DNA of 64,000 nt from Lachnospiraceae bacterium (GTDB taxonomy: Bacteria; Bacillota; Clostridia; Lachnospirales; Lachnospiraceae): contig CABJAW010000008.1 in NCBI GenBank assembly GCA_902363665.1, positions 130,774 through 194,773 of the forward strand, written 5' to 3'. How positions within the stretch are numbered: position 1 is the first letter of the stretch; the number at the start of each line of letters is the position of its first letter. The notes below the pieces were generated by a model. The model saw only the letters and a program-made list of their open reading frames with translations, was not told the DNA's origin and searched no databases. The position numbers and the translations under genes are program-made. This document shows positions 40,930 through 59,159 of this stretch, one piece after another.

Positions 40930-41814
40930 TTACTCTTCCATATATTTTTTTATAAATGTCAAAAACTTCTTTGCTGTTTTTTCCATTTTCTGATCATTCC
41001 GGAAGAGGCAGACAAACTGAACCGCCTGTTCCTCGTTTTCCAGCTGTATAGTATCATGTGTAATCGATTTCTCACTGTGACTGAGACAATTCGGACTGAT
41101 ATTGCACAGATTTGTTTTCTGCAGCATAGCCTGCATGATATAGTCACTGTTGGTCGTGACCTTCACCTGCAGCTTCCTTTTTTCTTCATCCTTTTTCTTC
41201 TGCTCTTTCCACAAAGAAATCCCTGAATAATAATCCTCCACACCCTGAACCAGGAAAATTTCATTTCGCTTTTCATGGTCCGTCTTATTTCTGCAGTACA
41301 ATACTGTCTTTGCCTTTTTTAAAGTATAGTAGCCGATATGATTTTCCTGAAACATTTTTTTCAATTTTCCAAGCTGCGTTTCTTCGAAATAAGCAAAGCC
41401 AAGCTGATCCTGACTGGCAATAATTCTCCGCACGATCTCTCCGGCCGGCGCACTGATCACATTATATTTCTCCTCTGCGCCCTCCTGTATATAGTACTCG
41501 CAGAATGCGTTAGCGAACCAGGAGCCCGGCTGAAAGGATACTCTGAGCTCCTCCGTTGCATCCTCCTCTGCACATTCCAGAATTTTTGCGCTGCATTCTA
41601 CCATACTCAATGCATACTTGTAGATTTGCTTTCCCTTATCTGTCAGCTCGATGCCATGCTGCTTTCTTTCGAATACTTTTTTCCCCAGCTCCTTTTCCAG
41701 CGACGCAATCATCTTACTTACATTCGACTGAGAAGTAAACAGTATCGATGCTGCCTTACTGAAGGACTTTGTCTGTGCACACGCAACCATGCACTGTAAT
41801 TGTCTTAATTCCAT
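40930..41814 (-). CDS. LysR family transcriptional regulator
   Basis: A 294-residue regulator. The N-terminal winged HTH is classical (LRQLQCMVACAQTKSFSKAASILFTSQSNVSKMIASLEKELG in segments, residues 3-45). The C-terminal effector-binding domain (about 90-290) is divergent, with few recognisable features, so the ligand is unknown. It follows the NifB-like gene after 27 nt on the same strand and has AAGAGGA before its ATG, so it is likely the last gene of the nitrogenase-like operon and perhaps its regulator. Confidence 0.88.
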   Translation of the reverse strand: MELRQLQCMVACAQTKSFSKAASILFTSQSNVSKMIASLEKELGKKVFERKQHGIELTDKGKQIYKYALSMVECSAKILECAEEDATEELRVSFQPGSWFANAFCEYYIQEGAEEKYNVISAPAGEIVRRIIASQDQLGFAYFEETQLGKLKKMFQENHIGYYTLKKAKTVLYCRNKTDHEKRNEIFLVQGVEDYYSGISLWKEQKKKDEEKRKLQVKVTTNSDYIMQAMLQKTNLCNISPNCLSHSEKSITHDTIQLENEEQAVQFVCLFRNDQKMEKTAKKFLTFIKKYMEE

Positions 41815-41841: not shown

Positions 41842-42648
41842 TCATATCACTCCACAGGCATCTGCCCGGCATTGTCTGCAGAATGTAAACTGACGCATCC
41901 AGCTCGCGGCCTGCATGCGCGCAGCGCCAAGCTCTTCCTGTGTCGGCGCTCTGTGACTGCTCATTTTTCCGCACGGAATCATCGGCATAATATTCATTAC
42001 GGCAGCACCTGCGCTTTGTGCCATCCGGGCAATTGCATCGATTTCCTTTTCGTTGACGCCCGGGATCAGAACGGTATTTACTTTTACCGTCAGCCCTTTT
42101 TCGCAGCTTTTAAAGAGGCCTGCCTGCTGACGCTCCAGAAATTCCTCCAGCAGCTCCTTTGGGTCTGAGTTCTCCTCTCTGCCCGGAATAGCGACCCGCA
42201 GATAAATTTTTTCTGCTGTCCCCACAGAAGCGGCATTGACTGTCACCGTCAGTGTATCAAGCCCTGCTTCCTTAAGCTCATCCACGCTTTCTTCCAGCAT
42301 AAGCCCGTTCGTGCTGGTACACAGGATCAGGTCCGGATACGCCTTACGCAAAAGAAATAAGGTCTCAAACGTTTCTCTGTTTACGAGCGGATCTCCCGGT
42401 CCTGCGATCCCTGCCACGCGGATCCGCGGTTCCTTCTGCAGTGCCTGCGCAGTTCGCTCCAGCGCTTCTTTTGGCGTAATGATTTTTGAGGCGACACCAG
42501 GCCTGGACTCGTTCACACAGTCATACTTCCGGTCACAGAATGCACACTGAATGGTGCATTTCGGTGCCACCGGAAGATGAATCCGCCCAAACTGCCCGTG
42601 ACACTTTTCCTGAAAGCACGGATGCTCCAGTATTACTGAAGACCGCAC
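41842..42648 (-). CDS. nifB: NifB-like radical SAM protein (no NifX domain)
   Basis: A 268-residue radical SAM enzyme resembling the catalytic core of NifB, which builds the iron-sulfur core of nitrogenase cofactors. Starting HPCF...CHGQFGRIHLPVAPK, it has the SAM-cluster motif C31xxxC35xxC38 (CTIQCAFC), then DRKYDCVNESRPGV, a NifB hallmark, and ends FCRQCRADACGV, matching the C-terminal cluster-binding motif. The NifX-like domain of long NifB proteins is absent, as in minimal NifB of archaea. It overlaps the nifH-like gene by 16 nt. Its presence argues that the partner enzyme uses a NifB-type cluster. Confidence 0.9.
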   Translation of the reverse strand: MRSSVILEHPCFQEKCHGQFGRIHLPVAPKCTIQCAFCDRKYDCVNESRPGVASKIITPKEALERTAQALQKEPRIRVAGIAGPGDPLVNRETFETLFLLRKAYPDLILCTSTNGLMLEESVDELKEAGLDTLTVTVNAASVGTAEKIYLRVAIPGREENSDPKELLEEFLERQQAGLFKSCEKGLTVKVNTVLIPGVNEKEIDAIARMAQSAGAAVMNIMPMIPCGKMSSHRAPTQEELGAARMQAASWMRQFTFCRQCRADACGVI

Positions 42649-43424
42649 AGCTGCTCCACCTCCTCATCCAGAAGCGGACGCGGAATACAGCGCGGATTTC
42701 CTGTGATCATTTTGTCAGCAATCGCCCGAAATGCCAAAGCCGCCTCGCAGTCCGGCTCCATCTCGACCACTGTTTTTCTCGCGATCTCTGCCAAACCGAT
42801 CTGTCCGCTCATCGGTACACAGCCAATCACCTGCGTCCCGATCGCCTCCGCAAAACGCTCCACCCGCTTTGGATCGCTGCAGCCGCTTCTTCCATTATAG
42901 ATGATCCCGGCAAGACGAACTTCATTTTCCTGCGCATACTTCGCAATTCCGCGGCAGATATTGTTTGCTGCATAAATTGCCATAAAATCAGATGTTGTCA
43001 CAAGATACACATCGTCCGCAACACCTTCCCGCAATGGCATGCTAAAGCCACCGCACACCACATCGCCAAGCACATCATACAACACAACGTCCCGGTCTGC
43101 AAGAAGATCTCTCTCTTTGATCTCACGCAGTGCAGATGCGATTCCACGGCCGGCGCACCCTGTCCCCGGCTCCGGTCCGCCGGACTCAATACACAAAATC
43201 CCTTTATATCCCGTGACTGCAATCTCGTTGTTTTCTGTGCTGCTTCCAAGCTGCTGCAGCACCGTCGGGATCCTGCGTCCAACCAGACACCGCGTCGTGT
43301 CTGCTTTAGGATCACATCCTACTACAGCTGTTTTCAATCCGCTTTCGGCCATTGCCGCTGCCACATTTGCGGCCGTTGTTGATTTTCCGATGCCGCCCTT
43401 TCCATAAATACAGATTTTTCTCAT
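42633..43424 (-). CDS. NifH-like reductase (nitrogenase iron protein family)
   Basis: A 263-residue ATP-dependent electron donor. Walker A GKGGIGKST (8-16), VVGCDPKADTT (35-44) and both [4Fe-4S] ligand cysteines of the homodimer, C90 in GTGCAGRG and C124 in DVVCGGFSMP, are present. It should pass electrons to the NifDK-like pair encoded upstream. The ATG at 43424 overlaps the NifK-like stop (ATGA), which indicates translational coupling. The protein looks intact; sequence alone does not separate it from NifH of other nitrogenase-like systems. Confidence 0.92.
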   Translation of the reverse strand: MRKICIYGKGGIGKSTTAANVAAAMAESGLKTAVVGCDPKADTTRCLVGRRIPTVLQQLGSSTENNEIAVTGYKGILCIESGGPEPGTGCAGRGIASALREIKERDLLADRDVVLYDVLGDVVCGGFSMPLREGVADDVYLVTTSDFMAIYAANNICRGIAKYAQENEVRLAGIIYNGRSGCSDPKRVERFAEAIGTQVIGCVPMSGQIGLAEIARKTVVEMEPDCEAALAFRAIADKMITGNPRCIPRPLLDEEVEQLCGLQ

Positions 43425-44695
43425 TGATATATCGCTCCCTTTAACGTACGTGCTGCAAATGCCTCGCAAAAAAGATCCTCCAGCAGACAAAGCGTCCCCT
43501 CTGCTCCGATATACGGACGCTTCGTCAGACAGATCCTGTCAAACACCGGAAAATCAAACCGCAGAAGCGGAATTTCCAGCTCATCCGCAAGCTCCTGCTC
43601 AAAGGATGAACCAAACAAAAATGCCGTCTCTGACCTTCGCACTTCATCATACGTTTCTTCTATATCCTGCAGTGCTTCTCTTTTTGCACAAACCTCGATC
43701 TCCATTCCAAGCTCCGCACTTAAAAACCGTGCAAGTCCGGCTGCCCTGGCTCCGCTTCCGATCACAGCTGCCGGAAGACCATAAAGCGCCTGCAGATACG
43801 AATAGATTCCTTTTGCTCCCTCTGCCGTCCGCGCCTGAAATGCTGCTTCTTCTGCGTCAAAATTCAGGCCAAATCTGGTCTCCAGTACCTTCCAGAGCTG
43901 ACGCGCTCCGGTCAGGCCGTACGGATAATCAAGACAGACATACGGTATGCCAAACCGCTTTTCCATGTCCTTTGCAAGCTCGACCCCGTATCCAAATACC
44001 AGATTCAGATCTGCCCCGGGTGCGCGGCGCACGCCTGCGAGATCTGTCTGTGAAAAGGCCGTGCAAATTCTGGCCTTTCCGCCAAATAGTTCCTCAAGTG
44101 CTTCAAGATCGAAAACGTGGTGTGGATCGTCTGCGCCGATTCCAAGGATATTCACTTGCGGAACTTTGCATTTTTCTGCATCTTCGTTTCCTTTTTCCGG
44201 AACTTTTTTCTTTGTTTCCTGCCCTTTCTCCGGCATTGGGGACATTTCTTTCTCAGTCTGTGGCCCTTCCATCAGCATCCCGAGTGCTTTCATTCCCGCT
44301 TCATATCCGACCCGAAAATTTCCCCTGTATCCGGCCGCCTCCATGGCAATGACTTTTCTTCCATGGGTCCGTTCAAAAGCCGCCGCGATCCGTTTCACAT
44401 CGTCCTGAATAATATCACTGACACAGCCCGTCACAATAAAAATAACAGACGGATGATACAGTTCCCCCGCAGATGACAACGCTTTTTCAAGTGCATGTTC
44501 CCCTCCGAATACCACCTCATTATCGCTGATCACCGTACACGTCTGCCGTACCTCTGTCATATCACACGATGCAAAATGGAATGCCATGGAACCAAAATTA
44601 CAGCCTACCACGGAATGAAACAGGATCACCCCGTCGCTGATTCCGCCAAGTGCCTGCTGTGCTCCGAGAAGCTTACATCCAAATGGTGCTTTCAT
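43421..44695 (-). CDS. NifK/NifE-like nitrogenase component 1 subunit
   Basis: A 424-residue protein of the nitrogenase component 1 superfamily. Three cysteines at P-cluster ligand positions are present: C7 (GCKLLGA), C32 (VVGCNFG) and C91 (VTGCVSDIIQDD). FGGEHALEKAL and late DFPVFDRI are other family signatures. A charged, repetitive insert (EKGQETKKKVPEKGNE, about residues 150-172) interrupts the domain and looks like a linker. It starts 1 nt after the preceding subunit gene, so the two form a heteromeric complex. It is shorter than NifK (~520). Confidence 0.87.
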   Translation of the reverse strand: MKAPFGCKLLGAQQALGGISDGVILFHSVVGCNFGSMAFHFASCDMTEVRQTCTVISDNEVVFGGEHALEKALSSAGELYHPSVIFIVTGCVSDIIQDDVKRIAAAFERTHGRKVIAMEAAGYRGNFRVGYEAGMKALGMLMEGPQTEKEMSPMPEKGQETKKKVPEKGNEDAEKCKVPQVNILGIGADDPHHVFDLEALEELFGGKARICTAFSQTDLAGVRRAPGADLNLVFGYGVELAKDMEKRFGIPYVCLDYPYGLTGARQLWKVLETRFGLNFDAEEAAFQARTAEGAKGIYSYLQALYGLPAAVIGSGARAAGLARFLSAELGMEIEVCAKREALQDIEETYDEVRRSETAFLFGSSFEQELADELEIPLLRFDFPVFDRICLTKRPYIGAEGTLCLLEDLFCEAFAARTLKGAIYQ

Positions 44696-44696
44696 T

Positions 44697-46196
44697 TTAT
44701 TCTCCCTTCTTCTCCAGCCACATCCTCTGCCACATTTCTCTGGCTGCCCGAGCGCTTACGCTGTCATAATCTGCATACCGCTGCTCCTGAAACGGCATAC
44801 GGTTCAAAAGAAGCGCATCCTTCCTTCCGGCATTGCGAATGCGGCGTTCCAGGCGCTTTATATTCCGATGCCACGACTCAAAGCTCAGGGAGGTCATTTC
44901 TGTTCCGATCGGGATCAGCGGCGCCCCACAGCCTTCCAGCGTGAAGTCTCCGGTACCAAGAACTGCATCCGCCTGAGCAAAGCAGTTTTGCAGCTGCTCC
45001 CGATCCGGATTAAACAAAATCCGCACCTGCGGCGCATACAGCTTCGCTGCTTCCCGGATGCGTTCCACCAGCTGTTCTTCGATGTCCTTCGTAATGTTCA
45101 GGCTTCTTCTTTGTTCTTCTGTCAGAATCACACAGAGCGCACCGATTCCCACACCAAATTCCTTTGCAAACAGCTTCAGGGTAAATGGCGCATCGGAGAT
45201 TCCACGGCATACCAGTACGCAGTGCTTTGATCCGAGATAAGCAAGGCTCTCTTTTGCAAGCATCCTGGTCTCTTCCGTTTTTTTCTCTATCTTTTCTTCC
45301 ATTTCCGGCAAGATACAAAGCTTCTCCGCGATATCCCGGTAAAAGAGTGCAATTCCATCCAGTCCCGTATACCGTCCGTTTCCGTTTAGCTGCATATAAT
45401 CAGTTCCAAACCGCTCCTTCATCCTTCTTGCCCAGCGAATCCGCTTCACCAGATTCAGCTGAGCCGCAGGCGCATGCTCCAGCGCAGCGACTCCGGCGCT
45501 CGGAATCCAGGTGTTCACTGTAACTCCGCAAGTATTCAGAAAGGCTTCCATCTCCCGCAGCACAAGCCGTCCTTCGCTTCCCCAGCCCACCGTTTCGATA
45601 TTGACGCTGCGCGAAATGATCTCCTGCGGTTTCATCACCTGTTCTACGATCGCATACAGCGCCTCTGTGAAGCCACAGCCCTTCAGCTCGATCTCCAGAC
45701 GGGTATCCCCTGTAATCTTCTGCTTCGCGATCTCCTTCAACCGGTTTCTTGAGTAATTTTTATCTCTGTGTGAGAAAAGCTCTGACTGAATTGCCGTCAC
45801 TTTAATCCCCTCTCGGCGCAGCTTCGCGGCTGCTGACCGGATATCTTCGTTCAAAATATCGCTGACCGGACTCGGAATGATAAACACCATCTCCGGTTCA
45901 TACCGTTTCCAGGCCTCCCTGACTGTCTTCAGAAGCTTTTCTTCTCCGCCGAAAATAATTTCCTGCTCTGTCAGATTCGTACTAAGAAGCGGATAAAACG
46001 GCTGATGCCTTCTGCGTGCCGAATAACGGTAATGGTAGCCGCAGCCGACCGGTGCATGAAGCACTGCCACCACATTTCCTCCAATTTCTCCGATTGCACC
46101 GACACTTCCGGAAATTTTCCCGTTCACTCCGTATGCATGCAGAATTGAGGACGGATACAGCCGTGATGCAAGGTCGTCATAAAAAATTGAGTACAT
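44697..46196 (-). CDS. NifD-like nitrogenase component 1 subunit with one P-cluster cysteine
   Basis: A 499-residue component 1 protein. HAPVGCGYHYRYSARRR holds C52 at the second P-cluster position. The first cysteine is missing (HAYGVNGKISG) and the third is serine (IIPSPVSDILNED). FGGEEKLLKTV and GTGDFTLEGCGAPLIPIGTE are further family features. Three cysteines from the partner and one from this chain would suffice for a single [4Fe-4S] cluster at the interface. GGGAGG precedes the ATG. A hairpin at 46223 separates it from the transporter genes. Confidence 0.85.
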   Translation of the reverse strand: MYSIFYDDLASRLYPSSILHAYGVNGKISGSVGAIGEIGGNVVAVLHAPVGCGYHYRYSARRRHQPFYPLLSTNLTEQEIIFGGEEKLLKTVREAWKRYEPEMVFIIPSPVSDILNEDIRSAAAKLRREGIKVTAIQSELFSHRDKNYSRNRLKEIAKQKITGDTRLEIELKGCGFTEALYAIVEQVMKPQEIISRSVNIETVGWGSEGRLVLREMEAFLNTCGVTVNTWIPSAGVAALEHAPAAQLNLVKRIRWARRMKERFGTDYMQLNGNGRYTGLDGIALFYRDIAEKLCILPEMEEKIEKKTEETRMLAKESLAYLGSKHCVLVCRGISDAPFTLKLFAKEFGVGIGALCVILTEEQRRSLNITKDIEEQLVERIREAAKLYAPQVRILFNPDREQLQNCFAQADAVLGTGDFTLEGCGAPLIPIGTEMTSLSFESWHRNIKRLERRIRNAGRKDALLLNRMPFQEQRYADYDSVSARAAREMWQRMWLEKKGE

Positions 46197-46222
46197 ATTA
46201 TTCCTCCCAGCTGATACATAAA

Positions 46223-46259
46223 AGGCGTATCTGCACTTCTTTTTCTGCGCAGATACGCC
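46223..46259 (-). terminator. Intercistronic hairpin between transporter and nif-like genes
   Basis: GGCGTATCTGC pairs with GCAGATACGCC, and on the minus strand TTTTATG follows. It may be a leaky terminator or an RNA processing/stability site that lowers nif-like expression relative to the importer. Confidence 0.6.
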
Positions 46260-46279
46260 CAGCTCTTACATTCTGTTGT

Positions 46280-47380
46280 TCACTGCAGAAGCCCCATTTG
46301 CTCTGCTTCTTTTTTCAGTTCTTCACATCTTCGGTTTATTGTCCCGAACCGACTGACTGAGCAGATCACATGGCTGCAGCGCCGCATCACTGCAAGCGCC
46401 TCCTGTACCTTTTCTTCTGATATTTCCTCAAAGGCCTGCTCAGAAATGACATGTTCGGACAGTGCGCGTGCCACCTGATAATCCACATCATTTTCCGGCA
46501 GGACACCGACCGCAAAAGGGATCCCCTTGCGCTGCAGCTGACGGAAAACAGGGATACCGCTTCCACCGCCGGCAATCACAAAGACTTCCGGTTCACCCTT
46601 TGGTGCATCTAGCTCCAGACAGCCAAATGCCGCGTTGTAGCTTCCGGTCGTCACACCATAGAGATGATGGATATATTCGTCTGTGAAGATCTCCTCCGGC
46701 ACGCCCATGCGCTCGATCCGATCACCATGCACGCAGATCACAAGATCGGACACCTTCTGTGCAAGATCCAGTTCATGCAGTGACATAAGTACCGCGACAT
46801 GCTTTTCATGCACCATCTGCTTCAAAATAGCCAGCAGCTCCAGCTTGTGCCGGATATCAAGGAAAGAGGTCGGCTCATCGAGTACGATTACTTCCGGCTC
46901 TTGGCAGATGGCTCTTGCCAGCAGAATACGCTGTCTCTGTCCGTCGCTGATCGCTGAAAAATCGCGGTCGCGCAGCTCCCAGGCATGCACCAGCTGCATG
47001 GCACTCTTCACCTTTTCATGATCTTCGGCTCCAAGAATACCAAGTGTCCCCGTATACGGATATCTTCCCGTTGCAACAACATCCTCACAGGTCATCAGCT
47101 CCGGATGAATCCGCTCGGTCATAACGACTGCCATTTTCCGCGAAATCTCTTTATCAGTCATGCGCTCCATCGAGGTATTGTCGAGCCAGACTGCGCCGCC
47201 CACCAGCTTCAGCTGCCGGATCAGGCTTTTTAAGATCGTCGATTTTCCGGCGCCGTTCGGACCGATCAGCGTAAGGATCTGCCCTTTTTCAAGGGAAAGA
47301 CGAATATCACGGATCAGTGGTTTTCCGTCGTAGCCAACGGTCAGATTTTCTGTGTATACAAAACTTTTCTGCTTTTCCAT
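46280..47380 (-). CDS. ABC importer ATPase (BtuD/FecE type) with C-terminal extension
   Basis: A 366-residue protein. Residues 1-250 are a standard type II importer ATPase: Walker A GPNGAGKST (40-48), signature ISDGQRQR, Walker B VIVLDEPTS and switch histidine in LMSLHELDLA. About 110 further residues form a Rossmann-like domain (EVFVIAGGGSGIPVFRQL, then VICSVSRFGTINRRC) not present in ordinary BtuD or FecE. It powers uptake of a corrinoid, haem or siderophore-like ligand with the next two genes, whose stop is adjacent. Confidence 0.88.
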   Translation of the reverse strand: MEKQKSFVYTENLTVGYDGKPLIRDIRLSLEKGQILTLIGPNGAGKSTILKSLIRQLKLVGGAVWLDNTSMERMTDKEISRKMAVVMTERIHPELMTCEDVVATGRYPYTGTLGILGAEDHEKVKSAMQLVHAWELRDRDFSAISDGQRQRILLARAICQEPEVIVLDEPTSFLDIRHKLELLAILKQMVHEKHVAVLMSLHELDLAQKVSDLVICVHGDRIERMGVPEEIFTDEYIHHLYGVTTGSYNAAFGCLELDAPKGEPEVFVIAGGGSGIPVFRQLQRKGIPFAVGVLPENDVDYQVARALSEHVISEQAFEEISEEKVQEALAVMRRCSHVICSVSRFGTINRRCEELKKEAEQMGLLQ

Positions 47381-48397
47381 TTATCGTTTCCCTTTTCTGT
47401 TTATCATAACATAGATCACTACCGGCGCTCCGAAAATCGCTGTCACAGAGCTGATGCTAAGCTCTGTCGGTGCAAACACGGTACGGGCAATCAGATCGCA
47501 GAACAGACAGAATGCCGCACCGCCCAGAAAGCAGGCCGGGATGACCAGAATCGGCTTTGCCGTTTTTAACAGGCTTTTCATCAGCTGCGGCACCGCAATT
47601 CCGACAAATGAGATCGGCCCGGCAAACGCTGTCACACAGGCACTCAGAATACTCGAAAGCAGGATCAGCTCCACGCGGAACCGCTTGATATTCACGCCCA
47701 TGTTGCGCGCATAGCCCTCGCCCAATTGATACGCCCCCATCGGCTTGGAGAGCAGAAATGCCAGCAGCACAGAAACTGCCACAACGCCCGCCATCATCGC
47801 TACATTGCTCCAGTCTGTGCCGGAAAAGCTTCCCTGCGACCAGTTGTGCAGGTTTACGATGTTAGAATCCTCTGCAAACGTCACCACAAAATCCGTGACC
47901 GCCGAACAGATATAACCAATCATAACTCCGCTGATGACCAGCATGGACATATTTTTTACCTTACGCGAGACAAGCAGCACAAATCCCATTGAGATCAGGG
48001 AACCCGCAAATGCAGATACAATCATCAGACCGGAACCGGCTGTCATTCCTTTCCCAAGAAGGAAGATCATCGTCAGAGCTACGGTCAGTTTTGCACCGGA
48101 AGAAATACCAAGCACAAACGGACCCGCGATCGGGTTATTAAAGAATGTCTGCAGCAGAAAACCAGACACCGAAAGTGCACCGCCCAGAATCAGTGCCGCA
48201 AGAATACGCGGCAGGCGGATCGACCACACAATATTTCTGGCCGTCTCGTCGCCGCCTTTTTGAAACAGGATCTGAAACACCTCGCGCACTGTCATCGATA
48301 CACTTCCGGAATTGATATTCCAGAAAATGAGCACAAGAAGAAATGCCGTAAGCATCAGAAATGATGCGATGTAACGTATTTTTGCTTTGTTTTTCAT
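47381..48397 (-). CDS. ABC importer permease (FecCD/BtuC type)
   Basis: A 338-residue membrane protein with about ten helices of the FecCD family. Typical segments are WSIRLPRILAALILGGALSVSG, FNNPIAGPFVLGISSGAKL, NLHNWSQGSFSGTDW and GPISFVGIAVPQLMKSL. It forms the channel for the substrate delivered by the preceding binding protein. The ATG at 48397 has TAGGAA upstream and starts at the first helix; an upstream open stretch runs through a palindromic repeat and is excluded. Confidence 0.92.
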   Translation of the reverse strand: MKNKAKIRYIASFLMLTAFLLVLIFWNINSGSVSMTVREVFQILFQKGGDETARNIVWSIRLPRILAALILGGALSVSGFLLQTFFNNPIAGPFVLGISSGAKLTVALTMIFLLGKGMTAGSGLMIVSAFAGSLISMGFVLLVSRKVKNMSMLVISGVMIGYICSAVTDFVVTFAEDSNIVNLHNWSQGSFSGTDWSNVAMMAGVVAVSVLLAFLLSKPMGAYQLGEGYARNMGVNIKRFRVELILLSSILSACVTAFAGPISFVGIAVPQLMKSLLKTAKPILVIPACFLGGAAFCLFCDLIARTVFAPTELSISSVTAIFGAPVVIYVMINRKGKR

Positions 48398-48450
48398 ATT
48401 TTTCCTACCGTTCCAATCCACAATTGGTATTTTCGCAGTTCGATCCAAAC

Positions 48451-48520
48451 GCAGAATAAGCATCCATCTTACCCACCACTTAGTGCTCCGCGCACTTGAA
48501 GCGGCGGAATGCTTATCTGC
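48451..48520. repeat. Palindromic insertion between binding-protein and permease genes
   Basis: GCAGAATAAGCAT pairs with ATGCTTATCTGC, enclosing CCACCACTTAGTGCTCCGC. The inner part resembles the CCCACTGCTTATTGCTCCGC module of the 208-bp repeat at 58645, suggesting a related palindrome. It lies within the operon and may affect mRNA stability. Confidence 0.6.
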
Positions 48521-48526
48521 GTCCAT

Positions 48527-49714
48527 TTACTCAAGCCGGTACAGATACGTCAGTCCCTGCGGATCCTCCTCTGTCAGCATCTGATGCATATCCATGATCA
48601 CATCGCCCAGACACGTTGTCTCCTGAAACATGCTCTTTGTCAGGCACCAGACATTTCCTTCCTTTACCGCCTTGAAATCCTTTAAAAGTGCACTTTTTTT
48701 CAAAAGCTCGTCAAGTGACTTTAGCTCTCCGTCGATCGTGCTGTTATAAATGATGTAATCCGCATCTTTGGCTCCGGCATAGAAGTCTTCCATGCCCATG
48801 TTCATCGTGGACTGGCCTTCCTCGTCCGCTCCAAGATCTTTAAAAATGTACTGACCGCCGGCCAGATCGATCATTTTGGACACATAGTCTCCTGCCTTGC
48901 GCACATTCGCCGCACCCATGGAATTGATATAGAAGAAAGCCACGGTTTTTCCGGTATTCTCCGTATTTTCCAGAGATTTCAGCTGTGATGCCTGTTCCTC
49001 AAAAAGTGCCTCTGCCTCATCCTCTTTTCCGAGCAGCGCACCGTAAAGCTTCACCCATTCGGTGCGGCCAAGCGGATGGCTTTCATAGCTGGAATGCTCC
49101 ACCAGCACTGGAATTCCAAGCTCCTCCAGCTTTTCCTTCACCTCCGGCTTATGATAGATCATCGTGGACTCAATCGCAAGATCGCAGCCTGCAGCCAGAA
49201 TCTGCTCATAATCCGGTGCGCTGTACTTTCCTGCAAACGCAATACTTCCGTCTTCAAGCGCCGTCTTCGCCTTATCGATATACCAGCCATCTGCATTCGT
49301 TCCGGACAAACTGATATGATCCAGCGCATCCAGTCCGCAGAAAAAGTCCATCGCAGAGGTTGCCACCAGATAAATGCTCTTCGGCGTGTGCGAAAGCACT
49401 GTGATGTCGTCCGGCAGATCCTCCGGCGCCTCTTCCCCATCCGGTACCAGCAGGAACTCCCCATCACCCTCGATTGTAAAAAGCTTATAGCCGCCTTCGT
49501 AGTAATTCACGGAAAACTGATCCGCATAGGAAAGCTCCAGCGCATGATCCCAGGTAAGCCCCGGAAGCGCCGGTGCTTCGGAAGCCGATGTCTGAGCATG
49601 CTCATTATTTTCTGTCTCCTGCGCCCGTGCTGCCTGCGGCACCGCCGCAGGGACAGCGCATACCATTGTCGTGCTCAGCACTGCACACAGGAACCTCACT
49701 GTATGTCGTTTCAT
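48527..49714 (-). CDS. ABC importer substrate-binding protein (BtuF/FecB type)
   Basis: A 395-residue exported protein: signal peptide (about 1-32, hydrophobic core FLCAVLSTTMVCAVPAAVP), a low-complexity stretch, then two alpha/beta lobes of the type III binding-protein fold. ILAAGCDLAIESTMIY, LEELGIPVLVEHSSYESHPLGRTEW and AVKEGNVWCLTKSMFQE are recognisable. Without an obvious lipobox it may attach by the uncleaved signal or stay soluble at the surface. ATG 49714 follows AAAAGG. Ligand unknown; B12 control suggests a corrinoid or related tetrapyrrole. Confidence 0.87.
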   Translation of the reverse strand: MKRHTVRFLCAVLSTTMVCAVPAAVPQAARAQETENNEHAQTSASEAPALPGLTWDHALELSYADQFSVNYYEGGYKLFTIEGDGEFLLVPDGEEAPEDLPDDITVLSHTPKSIYLVATSAMDFFCGLDALDHISLSGTNADGWYIDKAKTALEDGSIAFAGKYSAPDYEQILAAGCDLAIESTMIYHKPEVKEKLEELGIPVLVEHSSYESHPLGRTEWVKLYGALLGKEDEAEALFEEQASQLKSLENTENTGKTVAFFYINSMGAANVRKAGDYVSKMIDLAGGQYIFKDLGADEEGQSTMNMGMEDFYAGAKDADYIIYNSTIDGELKSLDELLKKSALLKDFKAVKEGNVWCLTKSMFQETTCLGDVIMDMHQMLTEEDPQGLTYLYRLE

Positions 49715-49735
49715 TTTTTTCGCCTTTTCTGTCAA

Positions 49736-50632
49736 CTACTTGTTCAAGTTAAAGGTCAGTGTATACTCGATCTCGTGCGGCTCGCTCATTGCAACTGTAT
49801 CCGCAACAACCTCCATCGGATAATCAAAACCATCTACCGGAATTTCAAACGTAGAATTTCCTTCTGTATTGACCGGCTCGTATTTTTCACCGCCAACAAG
49901 CATATAGTCATAATTCGGGCTGCTCCATACGATCGTTGCTGTCACTTCGCCGTCCTTTACCACCAGGTTCGCCGGTGAATCCACAGTCGCTCTTCCGCTT
50001 CCGCCTTCAAGTGTCACATCAGCCGTATATTCGCCGTCCTCCAGACCAAGCTCCTCTGCCGTTACCTTTTCACCCTCACCTGCCTGCGCACCCTCATCTT
50101 TTACCGGATTTTTGACGCTGACCTTGTGGTCATACCATTTGCCCTTTTTGCCGATGGCTGCCACGGTAAACTCTTCACCGATCGCCGGTACCGGGATATC
50201 AAAGCCATAAACCTCCTCCGACATTCCATCTTTATACGTTACGGTATCTGTGGTCGGCTCAAGAAGCTCTGCTCCGTCCTTTTTTGCATCCTCGGAGGTT
50301 CCGGCGAAAAGGTTCAGGAAGCCTTTTCCGCTGAGGCTTACATGAATCGTCATCTTGCCATCTTTTACCGTCAGCACACCCTTGCCGTCGTTTGCCTCAT
50401 TGACATGGAACATTGAGCTGTCTGTATCAAACTCAGCGGTATAAACACCATCCTCAAGAACCTCTCCTGTTGTGGCCTCCGTGCTGTCCTCCGATGCCTC
50501 CACGGCAGCCTCGGTGCCTGCCTCAGAAGTAACCTCCGTCGTGCTTTCTTCCGCAAATACTGCCGGGCAGCCACTCATTAAAAGAGATGCCGATGTAACC
50601 AGTGATAAAAAAAATGCTGTAGAGCGTTTCAT
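49736..50632 (-). CDS. Surface lipoprotein with two NEAT-like beta repeats
   Basis: A 298-residue protein with a lipoprotein-type signal (LVTSASLLMSGC, lipidated Cys near residue 21), an acidic Ser/Thr/Glu-rich spacer and two repeated beta-rich modules. The first (about 60-175) runs LEDGVYTAEFDTDSSMF, then AIGKKGKWYDHKVSVK; the second (about 195-298) runs LEDGEYTADVTLEGGSG, then EPHEIEYTLTFN. The layout resembles haem-binding NEAT domains, but the match is by pattern only. It could capture the ligand and hand it to the binding protein 21 nt downstream. GGAGGAA precedes the ATG. Confidence 0.68.
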   Translation of the reverse strand: MKRSTAFFLSLVTSASLLMSGCPAVFAEESTTEVTSEAGTEAAVEASEDSTEATTGEVLEDGVYTAEFDTDSSMFHVNEANDGKGVLTVKDGKMTIHVSLSGKGFLNLFAGTSEDAKKDGAELLEPTTDTVTYKDGMSEEVYGFDIPVPAIGEEFTVAAIGKKGKWYDHKVSVKNPVKDEGAQAGEGEKVTAEELGLEDGEYTADVTLEGGSGRATVDSPANLVVKDGEVTATIVWSSPNYDYMLVGGEKYEPVNTEGNSTFEIPVDGFDYPMEVVADTVAMSEPHEIEYTLTFNLNK

Positions 50633-50787
50633 AATAATTCCTCCTGTATTTTGTTTTCTGTATTTTGTTTTCCGCATTTTTCCAAAATTCTCTGCAGATA
50701 TTTTGCTGCTACCAAAAGCAGCCCGGATGTCTTTCAACATTCCGGGCGGCCTTTTTATGAAAGCTTCAGGACAAAAGCTGACTTATC

Positions 50788-52005
50788 TTATTTTGCGATG
50801 GAGTCGATTGCGTCCTTTGTATGTGCAACATACAGCTGCTCAACTGCTTCGATTCTTCCAAGTCCTTCAATCTGAACATCTACGCTGTCAAATGCGCCTG
50901 ATCCTACAAACTGAGTTTTCCAGGAATCCTCGTCATCGCCTGCCATATCGTTGTTTGCATGATCACCTGCTACTACCATCAGCGGACGAAGAATTACTTT
51001 CTTGAATCCTGCATCCTTAACCTTCTCGATTACTGCCTCGCATGCAGTATCTTCCGGCTCACCTTCAACGGTTCCGATGAATGCGTTTGTGAATCCGAGA
51101 TTCTCCATCTGTGTCTGCATCTGATCGTAGGTTACATTTGCGGTATGAGAGGTACCATGACCCATGAATACGAATGCTACGCCATCTGCAGCAGCTGCTG
51201 CCATGTCATCGTATCCTGCCTCTTTTACAGCTGCATCTGTAATTGCCTGTGCAACGGCCTTCTTGTCATCGTTGATTACGGTAGCGTCGTCGCCAACCTC
51301 GCCAAGCATCGGCTCAGCGATCGCTACGGACTCAAATTTATCCTTGTAGCTGTCAATTGCCTCTACCATCTCATCGTACTCAGCTCCATGCATCAGATGG
51401 GTCGGCTGTACAACAAGGTTCTTTACGCCATTATCAACTGCACGCTGAAGTGCCTGATCCATATTGTCGATCTTCTCATCGTCTCTTGCCTGTACATGGT
51501 TGATGATGATCTGTGCAGTAAATGCTCTTCTTACTGCCCAGTCCGGATAAGCTGTCTGCAGTGCATCCTCGATGCCCTTGATATCCTCGGCACGGCTGTC
51601 ATTGAAGGAAGTACCAAAGCTTACAACCAGGATCTCATTGTCACCAATCTCATCTGCATTCCGCGGATCATCCTTGGAAGCATCACCTGTATCGCGTCCG
51701 AAGTACTCCGGGCTTGCCTCTTCGCCCTCTACCAGCTCCTTCTGTGCATCGGTCAGTGCATCCCATGCTTCCTTTGCAGCGGTGCAGTCTGCATCCGTTG
51801 TATCGGTTCTTTCCTGTACGTAAATTTTATCGATCAAAGCTGCAACATTGTCAGCAGCTGCCTGATCTGCATCTTCTGTGCCGGCCTCAGATGCTGCCTC
51901 TGTAACAGCCTCTGTCTCCTCTGCATAGATGCCAACCGGGCTTACCATCGTAAGTGTGGATGCTGCCATCATCATTACAAGTGCTTTTACTACTCTGTTT
52001 TTCAT
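50788..52005 (-). CDS. cbiK: Exported CbiK-type sirohydrochlorin cobaltochelatase
   Basis: A 405-residue protein: signal peptide (1-28, cleavage near IYA-EE), a ~95-residue acidic extension, then a CbiK domain (~125-405). Catalytic/metal motifs are intact: VVQPTHLMHGAEY (H203, H206), VFMGHGTSH (H283, H287) and VVAGDHANNDMAGDDEDSW (H349). CbiK inserts Co2+ (or Fe/Ni) into sirohydrochlorin in the cytoplasm; an exported form recalls the periplasmic haem-binding CbiK of Desulfovibrio. It is the first gene after the B12 riboswitch, with AAGGAGG before the ATG. Confidence 0.9.
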   Translation of the reverse strand: MKNRVVKALVMMMAASTLTMVSPVGIYAEETEAVTEAASEAGTEDADQAAADNVAALIDKIYVQERTDTTDADCTAAKEAWDALTDAQKELVEGEEASPEYFGRDTGDASKDDPRNADEIGDNEILVVSFGTSFNDSRAEDIKGIEDALQTAYPDWAVRRAFTAQIIINHVQARDDEKIDNMDQALQRAVDNGVKNLVVQPTHLMHGAEYDEMVEAIDSYKDKFESVAIAEPMLGEVGDDATVINDDKKAVAQAITDAAVKEAGYDDMAAAAADGVAFVFMGHGTSHTANVTYDQMQTQMENLGFTNAFIGTVEGEPEDTACEAVIEKVKDAGFKKVILRPLMVVAGDHANNDMAGDDEDSWKTQFVGSGAFDSVDVQIEGLGRIEAVEQLYVAHTKDAIDSIAK

Positions 52006-52242
52006 GTCTTTTTCCTCCTTAATCTTCGCTGCACATTTCGAATTTTCTATTATCCGATGCAGCGCCTGACAGACAAATTATGCATTTGTTCTCCGATTAA
52101 TCAAACGCCCCACTGTAAAAAACGGGGAATCTGACCCTCGCGGCAGTCGCCAACACTTGATTCATGCGACGCATTGCTCGCGGGAATAAACGCTAAGGCC
52201 GATACTAAGACATGAAGACCACCCGGTAAAATGGCAAAAAAA

Positions 52243-52268
52243 GAACCTTCTACTCATGGTAAAAGGAT
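52243..52268 (-). terminator. Hairpin with U7 tract after the B12 riboswitch
   Basis: On the minus strand GATCCTT and AAGGTTC pair with one mismatch and TTTTTTT follows, about 60 nt past the B12 box. It is the likely terminator controlled by the riboswitch. The remaining leader to 52005 holds small stems and no gene. Confidence 0.6.
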
Positions 52269-52317
52269 CGCGCGAAAATGAAAAATGGTACAATCAATTA
52301 CTCGTGATCCGGAACAT

Positions 52318-52505
52318 GCCCAGTACCGACAACAGGCAGGTTTCCTGGCTTGCAGATCAACGCATCAGCCGCCTTCCCGGTTTCCCAGTGACATAATGGC
52401 CTTGCTCCCTGCTTACAGTGACGAGATCGCGCAGGACTTTCACCTGCTTCTCTTTTACCCGTTTCTCTGCTTCGGTCTTTTGCAGAGAAAACGGCACCTG
52501 AAGTT
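52318..52505 (-). promoter_or_regulatory. Cobalamin riboswitch of the cbiK-nif-like operon
   Basis: The minus strand has the family's conserved blocks in order: GCAGGTGAAAGTCCTGC, GTCACTGTAA, GTCACTGGGAAACCGGGAAGG and the B12 box AAGCCAGGAAACCTGCC (about 52336-52352). Adenosyl- or other cobalamin binding should shut off the operon downstream. Confidence 0.93.
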
Positions 52506-52583
52506 TCCTTATTCAGTTTTATTTCGGAACGCCTGCATTCCGGCGCTTCTGGCAGTATAATAGCACACTCTGACGGAAAGTAC

Positions 52584-55697: not shown

Positions 55698-56477
55698 TCA
55701 CTTCGTCCATCCAAGATACGTGATATTCAGCACTCCGTTCTTCTTTTCGATCTCCGTGTTCACATGGAATACCGACCGGATCTGTTCCACAGTCAGCACC
55801 TCTTCCGGTGTCCCGTTCGCAATGATCTTTCCCTTTTGCAGCAAAATAACGCGGTCACAGTAGCGGGCAGCCAGATTCATATCATGTACGGAAGTAAAAA
55901 TAGTCTTATCCTCAAACTGCCGCATGATTTCCATAATATAGAGCTGATATCCGATATCGAGATGATTCGTCGGCTCATCCAGAATAATCAGGGAACTTTC
56001 CTGGGCAAATGCCATTGCAAGATAGATCCTCTGCTTTTCTCCGCCGGAGAGGCTCAAAAAGCTGCGCTCCTCCGTGCCCTGCATTCCAACCATGGAAAGC
56101 GCTTTTTCGGTAATCTCCAGATCCCTCTCATCATCCTGCTCAAACATTTTCTTTCTGGAATACCGTCCCATCATAACCATCTCACGGACGGAAAAATCAA
56201 AATCCGGCTGATTTTCCTGTGCCACGACAGCCATCTGCTGCGCAACCTCCTTCGACTTCATCCGGTAAATATCTTTTCCGTTCAGATAAACCGCCCCGGA
56301 GGACGGGGAATACTGACGGTAAATGTTTTTCAGAATCGTTGATTTGCCGCTCCCGTTCGGACCGATCAGACCGACAAATTCATTTTTGGAGACGGAAAGT
56401 GACACCTGAGAGAGGATCTTCGAGGTTTCGATTGTAAAATCCAGGTCTTCCACCCGGATCACTTCATTCTCTTTCAT
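55698..56477 (-). CDS. ABC importer ATPase (BtuD/FecE type)
   Basis: A 259-residue ATPase of ordinary length: Walker A GPNGSGKST (about 37-45), Q-loop VVAQENQPDF, signature LSGGEKQR, Walker B LIILDEPTNHLD and switch histidine in TSVHDMNL. With the permease and binding protein upstream it imports cobalamin or another B12-regulated ligand. AGGAGGGGGA precedes the ATG. Confidence 0.92.
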   Translation of the reverse strand: MKENEVIRVEDLDFTIETSKILSQVSLSVSKNEFVGLIGPNGSGKSTILKNIYRQYSPSSGAVYLNGKDIYRMKSKEVAQQMAVVAQENQPDFDFSVREMVMMGRYSRKKMFEQDDERDLEITEKALSMVGMQGTEERSFLSLSGGEKQRIYLAMAFAQESSLIILDEPTNHLDIGYQLYIMEIMRQFEDKTIFTSVHDMNLAARYCDRVILLQKGKIIANGTPEEVLTVEQIRSVFHVNTEIEKKNGVLNITYLGWTK

Positions 56478-56488
56478 ACATCCCCCTC

Positions 56489-57535
56489 CTACTTACTGAA
56501 TGAATATCTGCTTTTCCGCAGCATCCACAAAAATGCCGGCGTTCCGCAAAGGGAGGTAATGACACCAACCGGAAGCTCCTGCGGGGAAAACATAATACGC
56601 GCAAATAAATCTGCCCATACGACAAAAATTGCTCCAAGCAGAACAGAAAACCAGATCAGACGCTTGTGTGCCGCACCGACAATACTGCGGCTGATATGCG
56701 GGATCACAAATCCGACAAATCCGATCGCTCCGCTCATGGAAACAAGGATCGCCGTCAGAAGCGTACTCGTCAGGATCAGAATCCATTTGACACGCACGGT
56801 ATTGACTCCCGTATTCCTTGCAATATCCTCTCCGATCAAAAGTGCATCAAGCTCGCGCGTCAGCGGAAGTGTCAGAACAAGCCCCACCACAAGCACACCG
56901 ACTGCAAGCGGCACATCGCCCCAGTCTGTTCCGGCAAAGGATCCGCTCAGCCAGAATGTCGCCGTCTGTACCCGCCTTGAATCCGGCGTCAGGAAAATGA
57001 TGATATTCGTCAGCGCAGAAAAGAATGAGGACAGTGCCATTCCGACCAGAATCATTTTTGTCGTGTTGATCTTTCCGTTTTTCGATCCGAACACAAACAC
57101 AATTACCGCCGTCAGAAGCGCTCCCGCAAAAGAGCTTTCCGCAAGCGGCACTCTTCCGATCACCGGCAGTGTCCCGATCAAAAGTGATACGACTGCTCCG
57201 GCTGATGCTCCGGAAGAAATACCAAGCACATACGGATCCGCCAGTGGGTTCTTCGTGATTGCCTGCATCAAAATACCAGTCAGCACAAGACCTGCACCTG
57301 TGCACGCCGCCACGATCACCTTCGGCAGACGCAGCGCCCAGATGATATTGATCTGGCTGCTTTTATACGCGCTCAGATCCTTATTAAAAATCTTGCCGTA
57401 AACAATCTGAAAGACATCCTTATAATAAATATCCACCGAACCAAAGTTTACAGCAAAAACAAGTGTCAGAATAAGAAGAACGACCAGCGCCGCATAGACG
57501 CCGGTCATCACTCCTTTTTTTGAATTCCTTAACAT
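56489..57535 (-). CDS. ABC importer permease (FecCD/BtuC type)
   Basis: A 348-residue permease with about ten helices. WALRLPKVIVAACTGAGLVLTG, ITKNPLADPYVLGISSGASAGA, TATFWLSGSFAGTDWG and GAIGFVGFVIPHISRSIVG are typical FecCD segments. It is the middle gene of the second B12-regulated importer; the gaps to its neighbours are 9 and 11 nt. Confidence 0.93.
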   Translation of the reverse strand: MLRNSKKGVMTGVYAALVVLLILTLVFAVNFGSVDIYYKDVFQIVYGKIFNKDLSAYKSSQINIIWALRLPKVIVAACTGAGLVLTGILMQAITKNPLADPYVLGISSGASAGAVVSLLIGTLPVIGRVPLAESSFAGALLTAVIVFVFGSKNGKINTTKMILVGMALSSFFSALTNIIIFLTPDSRRVQTATFWLSGSFAGTDWGDVPLAVGVLVVGLVLTLPLTRELDALLIGEDIARNTGVNTVRVKWILILTSTLLTAILVSMSGAIGFVGFVIPHISRSIVGAAHKRLIWFSVLLGAIFVVWADLFARIMFSPQELPVGVITSLCGTPAFLWMLRKSRYSFSK

Positions 57536-57544
57536 AGCCCGCCC

Positions 57545-58486
57545 TTAGAAGCAATCCGGATGGAATGCCTTTGCCATCGTCTCGATTGCATCCACGCTGC
57601 GGTAGCAGCCTGTCACATCCGTCAGGTCGATCACGATGATGTTGTCATTTTTGATCGCCGGAACATCAGCGAGAATATCACTGTTTTTCAGGAACTCCAG
57701 CTTCTGATCGATTGGGTCAGATGCAAGATAATCCATCACAACGATGCACTCCGGCTCTGCTGCGATGACATCTTCCCATGCTGCAGAAGTCCAGTTCTTC
57801 TCAGTATCTGCGAAAACATTCTTGCCGCCTGCCAGTTCGATCATATTGGTCGGAAGACCGGCACTTGCAGTAAACGGTGCATCCTCACCGGAGTCATATA
57901 CAAATACGGATACCGGATCCTTTCCCTCAACAGCCTTTTGTACTGCCTCAATCCGGTTCTTCATATCTGTCACGATCTCATCAGCCTTATCTTCTACTCC
58001 AAAGATCGCACCCAGGTTTGTAAAGTCTTCATAAACAGACTCAATCGTTGCCGGTGCATACTCTACCCGCGGGATGTACGGTGTGATTCCGTTCTCCTCA
58101 CAGAAGTCATACGGGAAATTCTTCTCGGAAAAGGTGGAATACCATCCGGTCATGAAATCCGGCTCTGTTGCAAGCAGGTCTTCTTTGGATGGATTGCTCG
58201 TCTCTGAGATGCAGTTCAGTTTGGAAAACTCCTCCGCATACTCCTCCGGCACCTCATTGTCCATGTAGCCATAGCCGACGATCTTGTCCGAAAGACCAAG
58301 CTCCAACAGCATCTCAGTTGTAAAGTTCGCAAGTGTAACGACACGCTCCGGCACCTTTGTATACTCAATGTCATACTCTGTTCCGTTTAATTCAGTATGG
58401 ATGGTTGTCTCTGCGCTTGCCGCCATCGGAAGTACGCATGCCATTGCAAGGCCAAGTGCTGTCACTTTTTTCCACTGTCTTTTCAT
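57545..58486 (-). CDS. ABC importer substrate-binding protein (BtuF-like)
   Basis: A 313-residue exported protein: signal peptide (about 1-24, KVTALGLAMACVLPMAASAE), then a type III binding fold (VPERVVTLANFTTEMLLELGLSDKIVGYGYMD segments, GAIFGVEDKADEIVTDMKNR, GLPTNMIELAGGKNVF, VIAAEPECIVVMDY). No lipobox is seen. It probably binds a corrinoid or tetrapyrrole because of its riboswitch. ATG 58486 follows AAAGGAG; the longer open frame is leader. Confidence 0.9.
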   Translation of the reverse strand: MKRQWKKVTALGLAMACVLPMAASAETTIHTELNGTEYDIEYTKVPERVVTLANFTTEMLLELGLSDKIVGYGYMDNEVPEEYAEEFSKLNCISETSNPSKEDLLATEPDFMTGWYSTFSEKNFPYDFCEENGITPYIPRVEYAPATIESVYEDFTNLGAIFGVEDKADEIVTDMKNRIEAVQKAVEGKDPVSVFVYDSGEDAPFTASAGLPTNMIELAGGKNVFADTEKNWTSAAWEDVIAAEPECIVVMDYLASDPIDQKLEFLKNSDILADVPAIKNDNIIVIDLTDVTGCYRSVDAIETMAKAFHPDCF

Positions 58487-58644
58487 GTTTTTTCTCCTTT
58501 TCTTGTGCTGCCAGTAAAATCGTGTCAAAACCCAAATGAAGAGAACGACACACCCACCGCAAGGCGGACCTGTCCCGTACAATGCATCTTTCTGTGAATC
58601 AAAACAGATATTCGCAGTTAAAGCAGCAGGATTGCCTGATTCGA

Positions 58645-58852
58645 GTCAAAGCGGATATTCGCAATCCGCTTCGCTACTTGTAGGATCATAAGGGATCCTC
58701 CCGCAAGCGGGTCCTTCCTTATGATATTTCATAACCGAGTAGCTGCTTCGCAGCTTATCAGGAGTGGCTTGTACCACTCCTGATACAAGCAAGTCCCCAC
58801 CCACTGCTTATTGCTCCGCGCAACCACGCAGGGGACTTGCTTGACTCGGTTA
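58645..58852 (-). repeat. Palindromic-chain repeat, left inverted copy (~208 bp)
   Basis: A non-coding chain of five palindromes, nearly identical in inverted orientation to 60871-61080: GCGGATATTCGCAATCCGC, a GATCATAAGG/CCTTATGAT stem with CCCGCAAGCGGG tip, AGCTGC-TTC-GCAGCT, ATCAGGAGTGG/CCACTCCTGAT, and GCAAGTCCC/GGGACTTGC. The only marked difference is inside the last loop. It sits in the leader between the riboswitch terminator and the binding-protein gene. Confidence 0.88.
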
Positions 58853-58856
58853 AAAA

Positions 58857-58881
58857 GAGCCTGCCGAAAAACAGCAGACTC
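58857..58881 (-). terminator. Terminator of the second B12 riboswitch
   Basis: On the minus strand GAGTCTGCTG-TTTTT-CGGCAGGCTC is followed by TTTTTAA. It lies about 55 nt after the B12 box. Confidence 0.75.
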
Positions 58882-58929
58882 CACACAATTCCTCGCGTCA
58901 TCTCTTACTTTCATCGGAAGCATCAGATT

Positions 58930-59085
58930 CACAGAACAAGCAGGTTTCCTGACTTATGGATCATCACGTCTGCCGCCTTCTCATATCTTTGCAGATACAA
59001 TGGCGTCTGACAGCCACTCCCCAAATACAGTGACCGGATCGCTCAGGACTCGCACCTGATTCCCTTTTCAGACCATCTGTGTGTG
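58930..59085 (-). promoter_or_regulatory. Cobalamin riboswitch of the second importer operon
   Basis: The minus strand reads AAGGGAATCAGGTGCGAGTCCTGAGC, GGTCACTGTA, a GTGGC block and GAAGGCGGCAGAC, then the B12 box AAGTCAGGAAACCTGCTT (58937-58954). It precedes the terminator at 58857 and the btuFCD-like genes. Confidence 0.9.
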
Positions 59086-59159
59086 TCGTCTTTTTGGCGT
59101 CATTCACAAAATCGTCTGCACTTACACTGGCATATTTAGTTGTTATTGACTAACATAGC

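Follow-up and report, generated by a model that had tools for sequence, protein, structure and literature searches.

What is a nitrogenase-like gene set doing behind a cobalamin (B12) riboswitch, next to a chelatase and an importer? This question is raised by a stretch of 64,000 nucleotides from a Lachnospiraceae bacterium (contig CABJAW010000008.1, positions 130,774 to 194,773), here called the window. On its - strand, a cobalamin riboswitch is followed by genes for a CbiK-family chelatase, a NEAT-like lipoprotein, a BtuFCD-type importer, two nitrogenase component-1-like subunits (D and K), a NifH-like reductase (H), a NifB-like protein (B) and a LysR-type regulator. Our tentative answer is that the D-K-H-B set, which follows the chelatase-importer module, is predicted to be an ATP-driven reductase with an iron-sulfur cluster made by NifB; it would act on a cobalt or corrin compound taken up from outside and so likely feed cobalamin synthesis. 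Gene order, riboswitch, clade, conserved residues, recurrence and the variety of importers can be read directly from the sequences; that D-K-H-B is a reductase follows from what is known of the family, and its substrate is what we infer.

The riboswitch and the gene order

From the riboswitch onwards, the window holds the following features:

52318..52516, - strand, cobalamin riboswitch aptamer (RF00174, 97 bits against a gathering score of 31.5, E 6e-23)
52246..52266, - strand, terminator-like stem and U-run, candidate expression platform, about 50 bases past the aptamer
50788..52005, - strand, CbiK-family chelatase, predicted to be exported (PF06180, E 2e-73; signal-like N-terminus by eye)
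49736..50740, - strand, two-repeat lipoprotein, weakly NEAT-like (PF05031, E 1e-5, 26 bits against 32.8; repeats and lipobox by eye)
48527..49735, - strand, substrate-binding protein (Peripla_BP_2) of a FecCD/BtuFCD-type importer (PF01497, E 2e-37; IsdE model weak)
47381..48526, - strand, FecCD/BtuC-type permease (PF01032, E 1e-80; BtuC model 214 bits, cut-off 334)
46280..47380, - strand, BtuD-type ATPase with a C-terminal extension (best NCBIfam model the corrinoid ATPase PRK09536, 209 bits, cut-off 537)
46215..46262, - strand, strong hairpin followed by UUUUAUG, possible terminator (-24.7 kcal/mol, z -6.2, 0 of 200 shuffles as good)
44697..46196, - strand, D, nitrogenase component-1-like subunit (PF00148, E 6e-36; invariant C52 and C174; clade support 100)
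43421..44695, - strand, K, NifE/K-like subunit (PF00148, E 1e-65; invariant C7, C32 and C91; clade support 99)
42633..43424, - strand, NifH-like ATP-dependent reductase (PF00142, E 5e-94; start at the Met of MRKICIYGKGG)
41842..42648, - strand, NifB-like radical SAM protein of 268 aa (NifB model 275 bits, cut-off 344)
40930..41814, - strand, LysR-type regulator, after NifB (PF00126, E 4e-19)

The matches to Rfam, where the aptamer passes the RF00174 gathering threshold, and to Pfam and NCBIfam agree with the gene content, order, strand and riboswitch that a preliminary description of this DNA had claimed. The CbiK gene starts about 310 bases past the aptamer, and the gaps from CbiK to LysR measure 47, 0, 0, 0, 83 and 1 bases, followed by two overlaps and 27 bases (H and K overlap by 4 bases when H starts at 43424). 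The stem at 52246..52266 is weak alone, and the wider riboswitch-tail region folds no better than shuffles (z -0.2).

A limited search with the D protein gave 129 relatives, 120 of which are listed, from 7995 candidates scored, and a contig scan with two peptide patterns, which is not exhaustive, gave 11 loci. With the window and seven further loci these make up a comparison set of 19, several of which are contigs of modest length from metagenome-assembled genomes (MAGs). Since the D-K-H-B order recurs among the loci of other genomes, the arrangement is not due to chance; of the 19 loci, the window alone has the LysR gene after NifB. The D family is rare and scattered: at a threshold of E up to 1e-60, with the centre genomes counted in, D is present in 3/391 genomes of the class of Flavonifractor plautii, 2/200 of the family of this species, 1/250 of the family of Parablautia (which we take to be the Lachnospiraceae) and 6/59 of the family of Phascolarctobacterium.

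Upstream of the nif-like set and on the same strand, a cobalamin riboswitch is found in 12 of the 19 loci (the window, L001-L009, L024 and L029), including all ten of the window's part of the family (the window, L001-L008 and L024). In L001, L002 and L007 it stands directly before D. The aptamer of L001 is truncated by the contig end; that of L029 (48.9 bits) lies just outside the fetched stretch, at G682:C27:393680-393842, and judging by strand and distance it would belong to the nif-like operon. The recurrence across loci, well beyond the window, rejects a chance riboswitch and bears out the tie between the nif-like set and B12 control that had been proposed. Furthermore, the comparison gives good support to a B12 link of the nif-like set that stands independently of the CbiK module. 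Because the riboswitch recurs before the closest relatives of the enzyme, a cobalt or corrin compound that is imported is the likely substrate. In 11 of 11 inspected cases, the 150 bases past the aptamer contain a hairpin with a T-run, as expected for transcription attenuation; the script reports the best hairpin that precedes a T-run, without a shuffle control.

As a separate observation, two Phascolarctobacterium genomes have cobalamin riboswitches before methylmalonyl-CoA mutase-like genes (by eye), at G009:C3:20111-20280 (-), beside L068, and at G008:C21:18830-19003 (-), in L070. Both sites are candidates for an activating corrinoid riboswitch.

The D-K-H enzyme and its NifB partner

In a quick-search tree of 81 rows, which does not include Mar, Isr and Cfb, D and K each make up a separate deep clade (SH-aLRT 100 and 99, respectively), distinct from NifD, NifK, NifE, NifN, VnfK, AnfD, AnfK, BchN and BchB. 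Among these references, NifD, NifE, AnfD, BchB and BchN are over their NCBIfam cut-offs, NifK, NifN and VnfK are just under, and the others were labelled by operon position. The set that had first been described as nitrogenase-like is thus placed outside the Nif, Vnf, Anf and Bch clades, with K in a wider group that holds BchB (SH-aLRT 85). The nitrogenase equivalog cut-offs of NCBIfam are missed by D (57 of 654 bits on nifD), K (54 of 427 on nifK) and H (331 of 394 on nifH).

K has three cysteines, C7, C32 and C91, that are conserved in 18 of 18 rows and align with the cluster cysteines of NifE, which we take to be cluster ligands there; K thereby carries the O-cluster cysteines of NifE type. 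D C52 is conserved in 28 of 28 aligned rows. Three cysteines in K and one in D would fit a single [4Fe-4S] cluster at the interface. On the other hand, the FeMo-cofactor ligands Cys275 and His442 of NifD are both missing from D (for roles, numbering and the equivalence of MarD Cys270 see section 8 of PMC12552129). In an alignment of 12 rows, all 12 have Arg at the Cys275 site and a gap at the His442 site; by position (252 in the 28-row alignment), the former is Arg in 25, His in 2, Tyr in 1 and never Cys. The P-cluster cysteines of D are incomplete. The missing ligands, the missed cut-offs and the tree position reject N2 fixation. An insertion of about 30 residues in D, which in NifD terms would immediately precede the cofactor-lining helix, contains H143 (25 of 28 rows) and C174 (28 of 28 rows). 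It is a guess that C174 might hold a cluster.

The operon includes a NifB-like gene in 15 of the 19 loci. In L001 the contig ends before the NifB position, and the remaining misses, L008, L025 and L026, belong to genomes G007, G303 and G327, whose nif clusters all encode (by motif) NifB or a NifN-NifB fusion. In genomes G006 and G004, D and K are the sole PF00148 matches with E up to 1e-10. Taken together, this pattern of NifB retention and the lone D and K indicate that NifB most likely serves D-K, and the predicted dependence of D-K on NifB is well supported by this comparison. Of the 441 positions of the NifB model, which describes a longer protein, the NifB-like protein covers just the first 275, and it misses the model's cut-off (TIGR01290, 275 of 344 bits). 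A profile of 12 rows, window included, matches the archaeal NifB 6y1x with E 9e-107. The motifs HPC, CxxxCxxC, ESRPG and CxxCRADA are present in the window and kept in nearly all of the 12 rows (the C-terminus of L028 is out of register).

How does this set compare with known systems? Mar and Cfb were compared via NCBIfam, PDB matches and a paper, and Isr via a paper alone. The NifEN maturase is similar, since its models are the best NCBIfam matches for both D and K (far under the cut-offs), K has the three NifE-type cysteines, and NifB and NifH are partners. However, D has no cysteine at the cofactor site, and in G006 and G004, with no other PF00148 match, there is no nitrogenase to mature. 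MarBHDK also joins HDK to a NifB-like gene and does not serve N2 (PMC12552129), whereas here the Cys270 site is Arg, the P-cluster cysteines of D are incomplete, and the genes go with a B12 riboswitch and chelate-type importers. IsrBHDK of Rhodobacter capsulatus shares HDK, a radical SAM gene and an ABC importer, but IsrB is like NifB in the radical SAM motif alone (PMC11423573) while the gene of the window matches NifB over its length; the word riboswitch is absent from the available part of the same paper, and the Isr set is set apart here by description. CfbCD, the Ni-sirohydrochlorin a,c-diamide reductase, has a NifH-like protein and the component-1 fold as well; here, in contrast, there are two distinct component-1 subunits, NifB is present, and the scores are under the cut-offs (H 313 of 402 bits for CfbC, D 44 and K 38 of 268 for CfbD). 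BchLNB and BchXYZ share the 3+1 ligand type of the cluster site. They differ in that D and K branch separately from BchN and BchB, and that Bch enzymes are without an L-cluster (PMC12176620).

These similarities raise an alternative that we consider rather unlikely, namely a ring reductase like DPOR or CfbCD: D-K-H-B would then reduce a tetrapyrrole macrocycle that either is imported or arises during anaerobic corrin synthesis. The 3+1 cysteines would resemble sites of NifE or BchN type, and in the tree K lies close to BchB, with weak support. Known nitrogenase-like enzymes of tetrapyrroles have CbiX- or ChlH-type chelatases as companions, and here too chelatase genes are found behind cobalamin riboswitches. 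DPOR and CfbD, however, do without [Fe8S9C] clusters (PMC12176620), yet NifB is kept here. The rarity of the family (3/391 genomes of one class) argues in addition that the enzyme is no general step of B12 synthesis.

For our own reading, in which an imported cobalt or corrin compound is reduced, the nearest working precedent would be, by analogy, the MCR activation complex (McrC, Mmp7 and A2), which is not known to be built of nitrogenase component-1 subunits. There, L-clusters are proposed to relay electrons to the nickel tetrapyrrole F430 and, together with ATP, to drive the reduction of a tetrapyrrole metal (PMC12176620), although that complex belongs to archaeal methane metabolism.

We also note that G303 and G327 (L079-L095) have 27 PF00148 matches each, with several unassigned nitrogenase-like pairs (about eight per genome by tree) besides nif and alternative nitrogenase sets.

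Importers, chelatase module and hairpin

The type of importer varies while D-K stays: it is BtuFCD-type, Opp/Nik-type or none. FecCD/BtuFCD-type genes stand beside D-K in 7 of the 19 loci (the window, L008, L009, L025, L026, L027 and L028; in L025 other ABC genes intervene, and in L026 the importer is downstream) and Opp/Nik-type sets in another seven (L003-L006, L010, L024 and L029). Five consecutive SBP_bac_5-type genes of Flavonifractor plautii (L007 3-8177, -) follow a cobalamin riboswitch that is divergent from the nif-like operon. In L011, a BtuF-like gene (by eye) and then CobN precede D, and on the 5-kb contig of L030 an importer was not seen. Five of the substrate-binding proteins in these loci match nickel, staphylopine and oligopeptide models, all under cut-off. 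In the literature, NikABCDE systems with B12 riboswitches were taken as the exception to nickel specificity (PMC2667541). TonB receptors are found beside D in three loci (L009, L010 and L029; that of L009 is just above the TonB-siderophore cut-off) and by eye also in L011, L027 and L028. Further D/K/H sets that are nitrogenase-like but fall outside the D and K clades adjoin TonB receptors, BtuFCD-type or Dpp-type importers (L068 603-9044; L071 2434-14724; L064 6758-10809; L011 16549-20979).

The chelatase of the window matches CbiK 1qgo (2.6e-37) and the heme-binding FetB 9b86 (3.3e-37). It retains the histidine motifs GHG and GDHA, is a CbiK by its Pfam match, and does not reach the NCBIfam equivalog cut-off for sirohydrochlorin cobaltochelatase (199 of 400 bits). 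Likewise, the BtuFCD equivalog cut-offs are not reached (BtuC 214 of 334, ATPase 209 of 537).

Could the operon serve the acquisition of heme or iron? The exported CbiK would take iron from heme, as has been proposed for IhtB/FetB, the importer would take up heme or porphyrin, and D-K-H-B would degrade or reduce it. We find this quite improbable: CbiK matches FetB as well as CbiK, and NEAT-like and weak IsdE matches point the same way, but the PF05031 score of the lipoprotein is under the Pfam cut-off and the riboswitch is one for cobalamin. Moreover, the Hmu-like CobN/importer operons of Bacteroidetes, which share a chelatase and an importer under RF00174, were read by their authors as related to cobalamin, not heme (PMC10100974); they differ from the window in that a term search of the available text finds no mention of nitrogenase.

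The chelatase and importer also occur as a unit of their own. In Parablautia (G004), CbiK-NEAT-BtuF-BtuC-BtuD (628, 370, 489, 521 and 566 bits to the proteins of the window) make up one riboswitch operon, and an Opp importer and D-K-H-B lie in another. A CbiK of the window kind (E up to 1e-60) is present in 87/250 genomes of the Parablautia family, 86 of them without the nif-like set. The 11 best-scoring CbiK genomes have a riboswitch upstream in 10 cases (not in L130), a NEAT-like gene in 9, and BtuF with BtuC in 3. In G773, a BtuFCD of the window type (235, 372 and 339 bits) is preceded by a riboswitch, by ChlI/ChlD-like genes (by eye) and by CobN. B12-riboswitch CobN operons are seen in G773 and G006, and a B12-riboswitch CbiK operon in G004. 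The window fuses two B12-linked modules that are found apart elsewhere; this fusion speaks for a common theme but not for a common substrate. The earlier proposal of chelatase, importer and reductase as one functional unit is therefore weakened, by the frequent occurrence of the module alone (CbiK in 87/250 genomes versus D in 1/250), by the separate Parablautia operons and by the hairpin between the two parts in the window. In another CbiK locus, L131 2-10010 (-), a riboswitch, CbiK, two methyltransferase-like genes, an Opp-type importer and a CbiM-like gene lie on one strand (methyltransferases and CbiM by eye).

The hairpin at 46215-46262, which lies with its UUUU in the 83-base gap upstream of D, may be a terminator or partial terminator. 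It is not among the hairpins of a pattern scan that allows loops of 3-8 only. Because of it, the linkage of D to the riboswitch within the window is uncertain. If there were two transcripts, the window riboswitch would govern CbiK-NEAT-BtuFCD alone, the hairpin (46262-46215) would end that transcript, and D-K-H-B would have another promoter and perhaps another function. The strength of the hairpin and its UUUU favour such a split, as does the CbiK module found by itself elsewhere. We still regard it as improbable: the U-run is just four long, a pattern scan of the gap matched no - strand promoter, and in other genomes (L001, L002 and L007) the riboswitch stands directly before D.

A neighbouring set lies upstream of the operon:

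55698..59108, - strand, second riboswitch and BtuFCD set (RF00174 at 58922-59108, 89 bits)

The importer behind CbiK is, in view of this set, a second BtuFCD-type system in the window. Neither this set nor the hairpin before D figures in the preliminary description. There is also a cyclic di-GMP-I riboswitch at 54781-54856 (-), upstream of LytTR-like and major facilitator-type genes on the same strand (both by eye).

B12 synthesis and the role of the enzyme

Are the carriers of D able to make B12? Among the 16 carrier genomes examined, a set that excludes those of the window and L001, CbiF, a protein of de novo corrin synthesis, is over its cut-off in 14; the other two, the MAGs G002 and G003, lack it. 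De novo B12 makers account for 37% of bacteria (PMC6461909). The presence of CbiF in 14 of 16 carriers is easier to reconcile with an enzyme that supplies cobalt or corrin for B12 synthesis than with one that replaces a B12 enzyme.

This bears on the suggestion of the preliminary description that the set might release methanethiol. As a B12-sparing sulfur enzyme, D-K-H-B would cleave C-S bonds of imported organosulfur compounds like Mar and Isr, for example giving methanethiol for methionine when the B12-dependent methionine synthase fails. B12 riboswitches do control B12-independent isozymes too (PMC7689651), Opp-type importers could carry peptides or thioethers, and MarBHDK (PMC12552129) and IsrBHDK with its ABC importer (PMC11423573) are non-N2 relatives with a radical SAM partner. 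However, the Mar/nitrogenase cofactor site of D (MarD Cys270, NifD Cys275) holds Arg in 12 of 12 rows and Cys in 0 of 28, CbiF is present in 14 of 16 carriers, and TonB receptors (beside D in three loci) and FecCD importers would be ill-suited to small thioethers. The methanethiol idea is disfavoured by these results, and we think a sulfur enzyme unlikely.

The preferred reading, reduction of an imported cobalt or corrin compound, would work as follows. At low B12, the riboswitch would let transcription proceed. The importer (BtuFCD-type in the window, elsewhere Opp/Nik-type, or TonB with either) would take in a metal-bound compound. NifH would give low-potential electrons to D-K via a [4Fe-4S] cluster held by K C7, C32 and C91 and by D C52, and a NifB-derived cluster, with ligands other than those of nitrogenase (D C174 is a candidate), would reduce the imported compound. 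Cobalt or corrin so freed would enter B12.

Several points weigh against this reading. The riboswitch was not found in 7 of the 19 loci (L010, L027, L030, L011, L025, L026 and L028), with the contigs of L010, L027 and L030 ending close upstream, and the hairpin in the window may halt transcription ahead of D. Repression by B12 is assumed as the sign of control, given that an activating corrinoid riboswitch is known (PMC10653944). Some copies look decayed: the nif-like operon of L002 (2091-4967) has no K and a shortened NifH and is probably decaying, and the K of L009 and the D of L011 are interrupted. The CbiK module, being mostly without D, gives no pointer to the substrate of D. The enrichment of CbiF over the 37% has a binomial P of 5e-5, a value that ignores shared ancestry and has no matched control. 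In the Phascolarctobacterium family, CobN shows no significant enrichment with D (5/6 versus 24/53, Fisher p 0.10), and its co-occurrence was dropped as proof of a tetrapyrrole substrate. Finally, relatives with a radical SAM partner (Mar, and Isr, the latter also with an ABC importer) cleave C-S bonds.

In the open-access literature, as far as it was available, we found no description of nif-like genes behind a cobalamin riboswitch, in agreement with the earlier remark that this gene combination was not recognised as described. An uncharacterised clade of the nitrogenase superfamily is placed here into a defined regulon, that of B12. A bolder possibility, on which we are doubtful, is that this would be the first nitrogenase-like enzyme of the B12 economy, a B12-switched, ATP-driven reductase with a NifB cofactor; with it, gut anaerobes would break or rework the corrinoids or cobalt tetrapyrroles they import and so mine cobalt or the ring for cobalamin. 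Since Flavonifractor plautii ATCC 29863 is a cultured carrier of the nif-like set, the question is testable now. Should D-K hold a cluster made by NifB although the usual ligands are missing, the roles of such clusters would extend beyond N2, C-S bonds and MCR activation. If true, the proposed reaction would name a low-potential reductive step in the competition of anaerobes, including those of the gut, for cobalt and corrinoids.

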